IMG/VR virus record: IMGVR_UViG_3300044961_000333
Span: 1 to 21,293 of that record
DNA: 21,293 nt
From: a virus
Reading direction: 5' to 3' (one strand)
Both the position numbers and the translations under genes were made by a program. Numbering within the stretch: the first letter of the stretch is position 1; each line of letters opens with the position of its first letter. The notes under the pieces were generated by a model. The model was not told where the DNA came from. It saw only the letters and a list, made by a program, of their open reading frames with translations, and ran no database searches. This document shows positions 5,084-19,556 of this stretch, in pieces.

Positions 5084-5658
5084 ATTTCGTATACGTCATT
5101 TCAAACAACCAAACGAAGAAAAGATATGTTGGATTGTCGAACAACGTAGCTAAGCGCTGGAAAGAACACGTCCGTCATGCCTTTGATAACTGCACGACGA
5201 AATATCTCTTGCATCAAGCGTTGGTGAAATACGGTGTTGATTCGTTTTCTCTAAGCGTTTTAGAAGAATATGAATTGAGAGATGACGCTTTACGAGCTGA
5301 AGCGCGTCTTATTAAAGAGCTTGATACGTTTGGGCCTAACGGATACAATATGACCGGTGGGTGGGAAGGTGCGCTCATTGTTAGCGAAAACACGCGGACA
5401 GTGATTTCTGAATCCCAAAAAAGAAGATTTGCTTCCGTTAAAGAGAGAGAAAAACATAGCAATGCTTGCAAAGGTTCTCTTCGAAGTGAAGAAACTAAGA
5501 AAAGAATAAGTGAATGTCAAAAGGGACGTAAACATACTACTCATTCAAAAATGAAAATGAGCCTTTCGAGAAAAGGAATTAAGTTTTCCGAAGAGCGTAA
5601 ACAAAAGATGAGAGATGGCTGGGCGCGCAAGAAAGTCCTCGAAAAAGAAGGACTTTAA
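5080..5658 (+). CDS. Intact GIY-YIG homing endonuclease with NUMOD3 repeats
   Basis: A 192-residue protein. VYVIS and RYVGLS (residues 4-20) form the GIY-YIG motif, R26 is the catalytic Arg in KRWKEH, E74 lies in LRAEARLIKEL, and GYN follows at 88-90. From about 110 the protein carries DNA-contacting NUMOD3-like repeats (SEETKKRISECQKGRK, SEERKQKMRDGW). The start codon overlaps the stop of the DsbA/GapR-like gene (ATGA), so translation is probably coupled. The gene is richer in A+T than its neighbours, as expected for a mobile gene. It is one of the few complete members of the set in this window. Confidence 0.92.
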   Translation: MNFVYVISNNQTKKRYVGLSNNVAKRWKEHVRHAFDNCTTKYLLHQALVKYGVDSFSLSVLEEYELRDDALRAEARLIKELDTFGPNGYNMTGGWEGALIVSENTRTVISESQKRRFASVKEREKHSNACKGSLRSEETKKRISECQKGRKHTTHSKMKMSLSRKGIKFSEERKQKMRDGWARKKVLEKEGL

Positions 5659-7246: not shown

Positions 7247-8064
7247 AGCATCTCATCATCGACGGTATGAATTTTGCCTGGAGATCCAAAGTCTGGGGAC
7301 CCGCGCGTGACGCGCCCGGTTTCATTTTCTTTCGCAACCTGAAGGCTCTCGTTGAGATGCACCAGCCCGATTACGTCTGGTATGTTTTGGAGGGTCGCCC
7401 GCAGGCGCGTCATGACATCGCGCCGACGTACAAGGCCAACCGCATCCTGGCTCCGGACGATCCGAAGCTGCAGGAGCGCAAGGATTTCATGTCCGAGATC
7501 CGATCTGCCGTGGGTATCATGGCGACGTATCTTCCCATCTCGACCGTGCGGCATCCGCATTGGGAGTGTGACGATACGATTTTCAATCTCGTCAAGAAAG
7601 CCTTGCAACACGAATCAGAAGTGATCGTGTCGTCGAGCGATTCCGATTTCATCCAGCTCATCCAGGATTTTCCCAAAGCTAAGCTGTGGAATCATACCAA
7701 GAAAGTCTATGTCGAGGCTCCGGAGTATGATTACGTGACGTGGAAGGCCCTCCGCGGCGACGGATCCGACAACATCAAGGGAGTCAAGGGAGTTGGCGAC
7801 AAGACGGCGCAGAAGCTGATGGCCGATCAGGATTCGTTGATCGAGTTCCTGACTGAGGATTCGAATCGGGCTCAGTTCGAGAGAAACGTCTCTCTCATTC
7901 GCTTTCACGAGTTCTCGGACGAAGAGCGGGCCCAAATCGAGCATTCTCGTGGCATGTTTGATCCCGATTTCATGCGTAATTATTTCGAGAGCTGCGGCTA
8001 TCCGTCCATGCTGTCTGAGACGTATTGGCCCACGTTCGTCGCGACTTTCGAAAGGCTGAAATGA
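7243..8064 (+). CDS. rnh: T4 RNase H-like 5'-3' exonuclease (FEN family)
   Basis: A 273-residue 5' nuclease. Metal-binding acids are visible in order: D7 (LIIDGMN), D110-D111 (ECDD), D133 and D135 (SSSDSDFIQL), and D173/D176 (GDGSDN). A helix-3-turn-helix follows (GVKGVGDKTAQKL, residues 180-192). The basic TYKANR at 62-67 matches the Tyr/Lys/Arg helix of the family. The stretch from VSSSDSDF to KKVYV reads like T4 Rnh. The enzyme should remove RNA primers and flaps from lagging-strand DNA. The ATG overlaps the preceding stop and its own stop overlaps the aminotransferase start (ATGA both times). Length is close to T4 Rnh (305). Confidence 0.92.
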   Translation: MKHLIIDGMNFAWRSKVWGPARDAPGFIFFRNLKALVEMHQPDYVWYVLEGRPQARHDIAPTYKANRILAPDDPKLQERKDFMSEIRSAVGIMATYLPISTVRHPHWECDDTIFNLVKKALQHESEVIVSSSDSDFIQLIQDFPKAKLWNHTKKVYVEAPEYDYVTWKALRGDGSDNIKGVKGVGDKTAQKLMADQDSLIEFLTEDSNRAQFERNVSLIRFHEFSDEERAQIEHSRGMFDPDFMRNYFESCGYPSMLSETYWPTFVATFERLK

Positions 8065-11936: not shown

Positions 11937-12523
11937 ATTCGTATGTGTACTGCATCACTAATTTAGTGAACGGTAAACGTTATGTTGGCAAGACGAATCA
12001 TCCTAATCGTCGATGGAAGGATCATTGCAATCCGGATCTAAAGTCTTCGGGAGGTATGATCATACCCTTCGCAATTATGAAATACGGCGCTCAGAATTTC
12101 AAATTTGAGATCGTTGCAGAATGTTCTTCTGAAGAAGAGGCTTTCGAACTTGAAAAGAAGTTCATCGTCGAATGGCAGACAACGGATCGGTCTAAGGGCT
12201 ACAATATGAATGAAGGTGGTTGTGGAGGTATTAATCCGACTCCAGAAGTTCGAGAGAAAATTGGAGCTCGACACCGAGGTAAGAAAATTTCTGACAAACA
12301 GAAAGAAATGATTTCGAAAGTTCATAAGGGCAAAGTGATGTCCGAAGAGTCTTGTCGAAAAATGTCTGCATCTCGTACGGGATCTGGAAACGGTCGTTAC
12401 GGAATGATTGCTTCAGAAGAGACTAAAGCTAAAATGAAAAAGCCTCATCGATGTTCTCTTTGCGGACGAACGGGTCATATCAAACCAACCTGTAGAAAAA
12501 CTCGTAGTATGATACTTCCCTAA
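11933..12523 (+). CDS. GIY-YIG homing endonuclease with NUMOD3 and C-terminal zinc knuckle
   Basis: A 196-residue protein read from GTG at 11933, which overlaps the VanY stop (GTGA). VYCITNLVNGKRYVGKT is the GIY-YIG motif, R27 (NRRWKDH) the catalytic Arg, the Glu lies in FELEKKFI, and GYNMNEGG follows. NUMOD3-type repeats run from about 115 to 170. The C-terminus has CSLCGRTGHIKPTC, an exact CX2CX4HX4C zinc knuckle, unusual in this family. An upstream start inside the VanY gene would add improbable sequence. The gene looks complete. Confidence 0.9.
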   Translation: MNSYVYCITNLVNGKRYVGKTNHPNRRWKDHCNPDLKSSGGMIIPFAIMKYGAQNFKFEIVAECSSEEEAFELEKKFIVEWQTTDRSKGYNMNEGGCGGINPTPEVREKIGARHRGKKISDKQKEMISKVHKGKVMSEESCRKMSASRTGSGNGRYGMIASEETKAKMKKPHRCSLCGRTGHIKPTCRKTRSMILP

Positions 12524-15654: not shown

Positions 15655-15927
15655 ATGGACTTTGAGATCAAGTTTGGGACGGGGTCGGCCATCTTTGGGT
15701 TGTGCCTTGTCCTGGCCTTTCCCATTTACGCGATCGTGCAGGCTAGCCGTTATAATGACGAGGTGGATTACTGCTACATCCAGCAGCACTCCGAAGGAGC
15801 CCTTCCTTATTACACGGTCTACGGGCACCGACCCTGGCGCCAGGACGTGACGAAAGCCTCGTATCGGTCCTTGGAAGATGCAGTTTCGGCGACGAAAGAA
15901 TTAAATTGCCCCCTCGAAAAAAAGTAG
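15655..15927 (+). CDS. Small single-span membrane protein
   Basis: A 90-residue protein. Residues about 11-31 form one membrane segment (AIFGLCLVLAFPIYAIV). The following 60 residues are polar with Tyr and two Cys (YCYIQQH near 39 and NCPLEKK at the end). The topology is probably N-in with the tail outside. I recognise no family. A late-type box precedes it. Confidence 0.7.
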   Translation: MDFEIKFGTGSAIFGLCLVLAFPIYAIVQASRYNDEVDYCYIQQHSEGALPYYTVYGHRPWRQDVTKASYRSLEDAVSATKELNCPLEKK

Positions 15928-17713: not shown

Positions 17714-18053
17714 ATGATCAAAAGCGAAATTTCCTTTCCTCAAGAGACTGTCGGAATCGGTCTCGAAGATCGATCATCCCAGCATCGATATCCAACTCGT
17801 CGCTAACGAGGATGTATACGTCGAAAGCGACGCCTTCGAGCAGCTCTTAAAGCTGCGAGTCATCACTCCGATCTATCCCGAGTCCCCGCGCATCAAGTCA
17901 CGTCGGGACATCATGACCTAGTATCGCAAGCGTGGCATGGAAAAGATGCCGTACGCTTACAAGGACATCGAGCCTGTCATCGATTCAGCCGAAGAGGCTC
18001 AGATTGCCAAGAAAGTGGTTCGTTTGGCTCCTCTGTGCATTGTCAAGGGCTAG
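17714..18053 (+). pseudogene. Broken gene with RtcB-like (RNA ligase) C-terminus
   Basis: Removing one A from the AAAA at 17718-17722 gives ATG and a continuous frame beginning MIKAKFPFLKRLSESVSKID. It runs to an in-frame TAG at 17919, then continues KRGMEKMPYAYKDIEP and ends in APLCIVKG at 18053. The segment from AYKDI to the terminal VKG matches the conserved C-terminus of RtcB tRNA/RNA ligases. The N-terminal 65 residues do not resemble RtcB, so the gene may be a deletion fusion. The natural stop is also TAG, which argues against recoding of TAG. A remnant of a tRNA repair enzyme inside a tRNA array is functionally suggestive. Confidence 0.55.
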
Positions 18054-18121
18054 GAGAAAAAAGTGACAGGGTGAGTGTAAACAGTCGACTACCATGTTAG
18101 ATTTAGAATCCTAGTCAATCT

Positions 18122-18434: not shown

Positions 18435-18462
18435 AAGGACCCATTCGGGTCCTTTTCCTTTT
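18435..18462 (+). terminator. Rho-independent terminator
   Basis: AAGGACCC-ATTC-GGGTCCTT is an 8-bp perfect stem with a 4-nt loop, followed by a T-rich tract (TTTTCCTTTT). It is the clearest terminator in the window and separates the first part of the tRNA array from the following non-coding region. Confidence 0.85.
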
Positions 18463-18549
18463 AATAGGAGCGGCTAGTTTTCAAGGCCTCCGAGCAAAAA
18501 AGAAAAAAGTGCTCGCGGAAGTGCAAACAGCCTGCAGATCTGGTATATC

Positions 18550-18557
18550 TATAAAAC
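18550..18557 (+). promoter_or_regulatory. Late-promoter-like box TATAAAAC
   Basis: It lies after the terminator and a CGAGCA/TGCTCG hairpin with an A-rich loop (18491-18515). Transcription from it would start at about 18562, at the first helix of the structured region. Confidence 0.4.
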
Positions 18558-18561
18558 ACGA

Positions 18562-18900
18562 CGAACTCAAGCGGTTCGGAGCAAGACAATGAACTTCGTA
18601 GATTCACATAGCAGAATGGGGAGCCGAGATTCGGCGGACCTGTGCGTGTGGTCCGATGCTGTCCGCCCGAACGTCGCCGCCCTTATCAATCCCTTTCGGG
18701 GATGATAAGTCGCGGAGCCGGCCCGAATCCGGCAAAGAGTCACGAGTCCCCGATAGGGGACGGAAGCTTCATAAGATGTCGCTTCTTGGGTTTGTCGCCG
18801 CTCTAACGGAATACCGGATGAAGCGACTGGAGCGGATGCTTGAAGGCATCTGACGCCAACCAAGATGGAGATATGGGAATGACCGTATCTTCGAAAGCAC
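18562..18900 (+). ncRNA. Candidate structured non-coding RNA (region 1)
   Basis: About 340 bases without a credible gene but with many perfect helices: CGAAC/GTTCG (18562/18574), GCCGA/TCGGC (18623/18631), CGGACC/GGTCCG (18635/18650), CTTATC/GATAAG (18682/18704) capped by CCC/GGG and closed by CCGC/GCGG, GCCGG/CCGGC (18717/18729), GTCCCC-GATA-GGGGAC (18746-18761), GATGC/GCATC (18835/18846) and AGATATGG/CCGTATCT (18869/18883). GTCGCTTC (18778) pairs with GAAGCGAC (18820), while CCGCTC (18798) pairs with GAGCGG (18830), forming an H-type pseudoknot. A late-type box is upstream and tRNA-Arg downstream. It does not show the conserved words of RNase P RNA or tmRNA;  the large tRNA-linked phage RNAs GOLLD and ROOL are alternatives to test. 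Confidence 0.6.
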
Positions 18901-18909
18901 AATGTATTT

Positions 18910-18984
18910 GCCCGCGTAGTTCAGTGGATTTAGAACGCCTGTCTACGAAACAGGAGGTCGCAGGTTCGAGTCCTGCCGCGGGTA
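18910..18984 (+). tRNA. tRNA-Arg(ACG)
   Basis: Acceptor GCCCGCG/CGCGGGT, anticodon arm CCTGT-CTACGAA-ACAGG, T-arm GCAGG-TTCGAGT-CCTGC, A73, no encoded CCA. A34 would need deamination to inosine by the host TadA. A perfect ACGTGC-ATAC-GCACGT hairpin follows at 19001-19016. Confidence 0.92.
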
Positions 18985-19023
18985 CTATTCTCCTTAATAT
19001 ACGTGCATACGCACGTTCAATTT

Positions 19024-19249: not shown

Positions 19250-19556
19250 CGGTTGGTGGTCGTATCTGGTGGTCGAAACTTAACTCCCGCTCGGGGTAAG
19301 ACACCGGCAACGGACACTGGTCGGATCTAACGTATCTAGGAAGCATAAAGCAGCGGCGAAGGGGATCAATGCAGTGGCCTATTCCTCTTCAAAGCATAAC
19401 GCCGACACTAATCGGACCAGAGCTTGGGCGTTTGCGAGTAAAACCTCGCTCCGTCGCTAACGGTGAGATCGCTACTCACCTAGACGGATGGCTGAAGAAT
19501 GCGACTTTGATAGGAAGGTAAAAGAGGTGGTTCTCTTTTCGGATCGATCATCAACC
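19250..19556 (+). ncRNA. Candidate structured non-coding RNA (region 2)
   Basis: About 305 bases without a gene. Visible pairings are: long-range CTGGTCGGAT (19317) with ATCGGACCAG (19411), 9 of 10 pairs, enclosing CGGC/GCCG (19354/19401) and GAAGGGG/CCTCTTC (19358/19384); GCGAG-TAAAAC-CTCGC (19434-19449); CCGTC/GACGG (19451/19483) enclosing GGTGAG/CTCACC (19462/19475); and AAAGAG/CTCTTT (19521/19533). GGTGGTCG is repeated near the 5' end. No T-loop sequence is present, so it is not a hidden tRNA. It lies between tRNA-Pro and tRNA-Lys and could be processed from the same transcript. Confidence 0.55.

Follow-up and report, generated by a model that had tools for sequence, protein, structure and literature searches.

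The tRNA cluster of a large, uncultivated phage contains at its head a structured RNA that is very probably real, new and narrowly distributed among such clusters. The RNA is assigned to positions 18556 to 18905 (+ strand) of a 21-kb IMG/VR record, all 21,293 nucleotides of which are referred to here as the window. Its 5' end is predicted at about 18556-18559, and its 3' end would arise by processing just before a tRNA-Arg gene. According to the best reading, the RNA represents a small new family outside Rfam that occurs in the tRNA clusters of large phages (~200-310 kb). Portions of it can still be identified in two related phages, which makes a genuine, functional RNA probable. The original prediction of an undescribed structured RNA beside phage tRNAs is supported by the lack of any Rfam match in the segment at E<=10, which places the RNA outside Rfam, by compensating changes in homologues and by a promoter-like element.

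Genomic setting and predicted transcript

Several of the relatives that were found are contigs of 200-310 kb, and no DNA similar to the window is present among 50,697 phage records. The window codes for a 5'-3' exonuclease, an endolysin and homing endonucleases, and it contains tRNAs and degenerate tRNAs from about 16 kb onward. For instance, ARAGORN predicts a tRNA with an anticodon-arm intron of ~168 nt at 20776-21023, and the Rfam group I model does not recognise this intron. Moreover, a frame at ~17718-18052 (the frame of 17700) has one internal TAG, after which protein-like sequence continues to 18052; it may be a broken or recoded gene.

The segment was originally described as devoid of genes and bounded by a terminator, a late-type box and a tRNA-Arg, and this description was confirmed. 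The open reading frames inside the segment do not belong to any protein family (best E 0.07). The conserved LTEYRM frame (18656-18853) was also rejected as a protein: it has no family, the alignment contains a gap of 5 nt and the conservation runs beyond the stop codon. Upstream, a perfect GGACCCATTCGGGTCC-TTTTCCTTTT hairpin (GGACCC..GGGTCC) followed by a T run at 18437-18462 (+) reads as the intrinsic terminator of a unit comprising tRNA-Glu and a small ORF, and would isolate the structured RNA from it. Downstream, the predicted tRNA-Arg(acg) at 18910-18985 (+) is the first tRNA of the following operon.

The TATA-containing box at 18544-18549 is the -10 element of a phage-type promoter (18503-18549, +), which reads AAAAAAGTG..AGTGCAAA (18520-18527)-N16-TATATC (18544-18549) and follows the motif GTGYAAA-N14..20-TATW. 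The window has two copies of the motif (15927 and 18521), as compared to a mean of 0.05 in shuffled sequences; the copy at 15927 stands ahead of the start of the tRNA array and a variant (18058-18080) lies ahead of tRNA-Glu. In the relative G014 (L114), the motif is found six times in 3 kb, mostly directly 5' of an ATG; other genes of the phage group thus share it. The promoter spacing places the predicted transcription start at about 18556-18559, which is where the folded RNA begins. The 3' end of the RNA carries no terminator mark, and we infer that a cut by RNase P at tRNA-Arg would set it.

The segment from 18550 to 18905 (+ strand) folds with -139.3 kcal/mol (z -4.0), and none of 100 shuffled sequences was as stable; for 18556-18893 the z-score is -4.5. 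As a whole, the segment folds better than expected by chance. A 3' hairpin, GGAGAUAUGG-GAAUGA-CCGUAUCUUC (18867-18892, +), is seen in the fold of the window sequence alone. The helix P1 of the energy fold, which pairs CGACGAACUC (18559-18568) with GGGUUUGUCG (18788-18797), is at most an alternative fold because it draws on letters of the covarying helices S0 and S1 in the D2 module described below.

Module D2 and its homologue

A collection of viral sequences was scanned with three exact 15-mers, and one scan yielded a true relative, the 23.6-kb contig L232. Its sequence is 69% identical to RNA positions 225-324 over 106 nt (nhmmer E 3e-7), and a CM built from the window alone also finds the homologue (E 0.0015). 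The shared part, module D2, is a three-way junction at 18780-18872 (+) in the window and at 3150-3247 in L232, where it sits in a tRNA array with tRNA-Val(cac) on one side and tRNA-Pro(ggg) on the other. Helix S0 (18784-18789/18860-18865, +) is UCUUGG/CCAAGA in the window and CCUCAG/CUGAGG in L232. S1 (18794-18798/18823-18827, +) carries the invariant apical motif CUAACGGAAUACCGGAUG (18803-18820), and S2 (18832-18837/18848-18856, +) contains a UGA bulge. The 18-nt apical motif is identical in phages that otherwise share little DNA.

The comparison with homologues from metagenomic phages, which had been proposed as a check on the RNA, revealed compensating changes between the D2 modules of the window and L232. 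All 22 pairs of the module form in both sequences, seven of them are changed on both sides and none is broken. Every one of the seven changed pairs is compensated on both sides, and the pairing is lost when the partners are slid against each other. The shuffle control is coarse because both sequences were taken into account when the 22-pair structure was drawn and n is 2; folding each sequence independently is the cleaner test. When energy-folded alone, the window and L232 modules reach the identical three-way junction, and each fold has 4 to 5 further pairs that the other sequence lacks. The L232 module is no more stable than its own shuffles (z +0.7).

Among the records searched, the junction with the CUAACGGAAUACCGGAUG motif is present in the window and in L232 only. 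A CM of D2 (R2) recovered these two among 51 records, the weaker matches being chance-like, and D2 was not found in G001, a 309-kb relative, or in the other relatives searched. Furthermore, a full-length CM (R1) detected no homologue in 18 records, the D2 pattern had no match in the genome collection and the phage collection as a whole contained no convincing match to the RNA. The D2 module of L232 shares GGAATACCGG, GCGGCCCC and CTGACG with 16S rRNA; mimicry of 16S rRNA was rejected, as z did not exceed 1.8 and shuffled sequences scored higher.

The original prediction also contained an H-type pseudoknot. Both of its helices exist as letters, the 8-bp helix as GTCGCTTC (18778-18785) with GAAGCGAC (18820-18827) and the 6-bp helix as CCGCTC (18798-18803) with GAGCGG (18830-18835). 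However, an H-type pair of perfect helices of at least 8 and at least 6 bp appears in 115 of 1000 dinucleotide shuffles (11.5%), which is not beyond chance. When placed on the L232 alignment, three of the 12 counted pairs are broken and one shows a double change, no better than in shuffles. As the pseudoknot would also occupy letters that the covarying helices S0 and S1 need, it was rejected.

Modules D1 and r2

The 5' part of the RNA constitutes a second module, D1 (18571-18745, +), which is supported by a Smith-Waterman alignment to G001 and by the CM R3. Its homologues are flanked by tRNA-Glu(ctc) and tRNA-Pro(tgg) both in L232 (2755-2959) and in G001 (L013 ~15941-15760, - strand). The alignment of the window D1 with that of G001 scores 27.5, the best of 300 shuffles reaching 21.5. 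The match to L232 is weak: depending on which of two scorings is used, 5 of 300 or 114 of 300 shuffles do equally well. The CM R3, for which G001 and L232 were used and the window was left out, gives 18557-18744 the top rank in a stretch of 5.8 kb (E 0.05). All three D1 elements have in common a closing helix (GUUCGG 18574-18579 with CCGAAC 18667-18672 in the window, +), a CCC..GGGG hairpin followed by UGA-AA, and GCCGG..CCGGC, which in the window forms hairpin H3 (GCCGG-CCGGC, 18717-18733, +). Some pairs in the outer stem of hairpin H2 (~18675-18714 in the window, +) are compensated in L232; in the window, one pair of this stem is broken. It is likely, though not proven, that the window D1 is homologous to the elements of the relatives, the link to G001 consisting of both sequence and shape. 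The tRNA arrays of G001 also contain a tRNA with the stop anticodon TTA according to ARAGORN (L014, reverse complement 5151-5226) and a tRNA-Sec-like gene according to Rfam (L013 6488-6573).

A linker of ~38 nt (18746-18783, +) with the hairpin GUCCCC-GAUA-GGGGAC connects D1 to D2 in the window, and at the equivalent place L232 has tRNA-Pro(tgg) and tRNA-Val(cac). A further undescribed RNA, r2, follows tRNA-Pro(ggg) in the window (~19260-19525) and is conserved in L232 (3395-3690) and G001 (L013 15445-15141, - strand); 35 of its 83 pairs are doubly changed and 18 are broken in one sequence. r2 has no Rfam family, and its exact pattern has no match in the genome collection. The order of the modules is D1-D2-(tRNAs)-r2 in the window, D1-(tRNAs)-D2-(tRNA)-r2 in L232 and D1-(tRNAs)-r2 in G001, and every homologue found is housed in a tRNA array. 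Some GOLLD RNAs are reported to carry tRNAs in their linker (PMC12286853), just as tRNAs separate D1 from D2 in L232, so that the interleaving of modules and tRNAs is not without precedent.

Comparison with known RNAs

GOLLD and ROOL had been named as possible kin of the RNA. Kinship with GOLLD by descent is unsupported because the Rfam model (RF02032), used to look for the conserved 3' region, detects GOLLD in another phage tRNA array (L017 3800-4197 on the 200-kb phage contig G007; 169 bits at the gathering threshold) and has no match in the window stretch at E<=10. As an analogy of setting the comparison stands: each is a structured RNA that has modular 5' and 3' regions and is located in tRNA clusters of phages, whereas GOLLD often exceeds 800 nt, as compared to ~340 nt here, and differs in sequence. 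ROOL is a phage and prophage RNA found near tRNA islands (PMC12286853), and the window RNA likewise lies beside phage tRNAs. However, ROOL is larger and contains several pseudoknots, whereas no pseudoknot is supported in the window RNA, and its Rfam model does not match the window RNA at E<=10. A further trait of GOLLD and ROOL is a homo-oligomeric RNA cage. Extra stable RNAs also belong to the tRNA cluster of phage T4, in which RNAs C and D (species 1 and 2) are co-transcribed with the phage tRNAs. The window RNA would resemble them in this respect if it is transcribed as predicted.

As stated originally, signatures of RNase P RNA and tmRNA are lacking. The window RNA is similar in length to bacterial class A RNase P RNA (RF00010); it aligns with an RNase P RNA from a phage array no better than shuffles do and has no Rfam match. 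ARAGORN with tmRNA search and Rfam detected no tmRNA in the window. For group I introns, the lack of an Rfam match says less, as the sensitivity of Rfam is limited: the predicted ~168-nt tRNA intron of the window is missed as well. Group I introns have a P3-P8/P4-P6 core, and an interlaced order like that of P3 and P7 is not seen among the D2 helices that are supported.

RNase P RNA does occur in the arrays of the relatives. L232 has a full-length class A RNase P RNA (7367-7724; 260 bits) right after tRNA-Leu in its tRNA array, and G001 has a truncated 3' remnant at the corresponding place (L013 ~12150-12235, - strand; 15 bits with RF00010, alignment above all 200 shuffles). The motif AACCAAGA..GGAATGAYCGT, which is common to the window and G001, was discarded since its matches in the collection do not exceed chance and its copy in G001 belongs to the truncated RNase P RNA.

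Possible function and alternative explanations

On balance, we favour a stable RNA of ~340 nt that is released from the tRNA transcript and acts in trans. The phage-type promoter would start transcription at about 18556, and the predicted transcript would comprise D1, the linker and D2, followed by tRNA-Arg, tRNA-Phe and tRNA-Pro. A cut directly before tRNA-Arg by the RNase P of the host or the phage would release the stable ~340-nt RNA, which would hold two separately folded modules. By analogy with what is thought for GOLLD and ROOL, it would most probably play a structural role in trans during infection and serve to scaffold or sequester tRNAs, ribosomes or proteins.

The position of the RNA, which extends from the operon promoter right up to tRNA-Arg, would also suit a cis-acting leader, that is, a folded 5' part of the tRNA-operon transcript that guides or times tRNA cleavage and is then degraded, and the homologous modules in L232 and G001 are also close to tRNAs. 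However, the structure is kept while the neighbouring tRNA differs (tRNA-Arg in the window, tRNA-Pro or tRNA-Val in the relatives), D1 of the relatives comes after tRNA-Glu and not at the operon head, and so elaborate a conserved core would not obviously be needed for processing. A leader is therefore considered unlikely. Distinctly unlikely is that D1, D2 and r2 are pieces of one larger, fragmented RNA with tRNA-bearing linkers that assembles after tRNA excision. The recurring order of the modules with intervening tRNAs in the three phages, the covariation of r2 itself and the tRNAs reported in GOLLD linkers are in line with this idea, but no D2 was found in the G001 cluster, and the pairing between modules, judged by whole-length duplex energies, is no higher than in shuffles. 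No more probable is its extended form, in which the three modules and the interleaved functional tRNAs would make up a GOLLD-like RNA of ~560 nt assembled in trans.

It is very improbable that the segment is decayed intron, homing-endonuclease or tRNA debris that folds by accident. The region does contain HNH and GIY-YIG genes and degenerate tRNAs; this explanation is opposed by the compensating changes in D2, the absence of broken pairs and the identity of the apical motif, and also by the missing group I intron match, to be read with the limited sensitivity of Rfam noted above.

As GOLLD and ROOL illustrate, large RNAs can lie hidden in the tRNA islands of phages. The existence of a further, apparently unrelated RNA family with modules that can be split by tRNAs and with a promoter-like element suggests that such RNAs recur in tRNA-rich phages, and a comparison across the families makes it testable what these RNAs do for the adjoining tRNAs.
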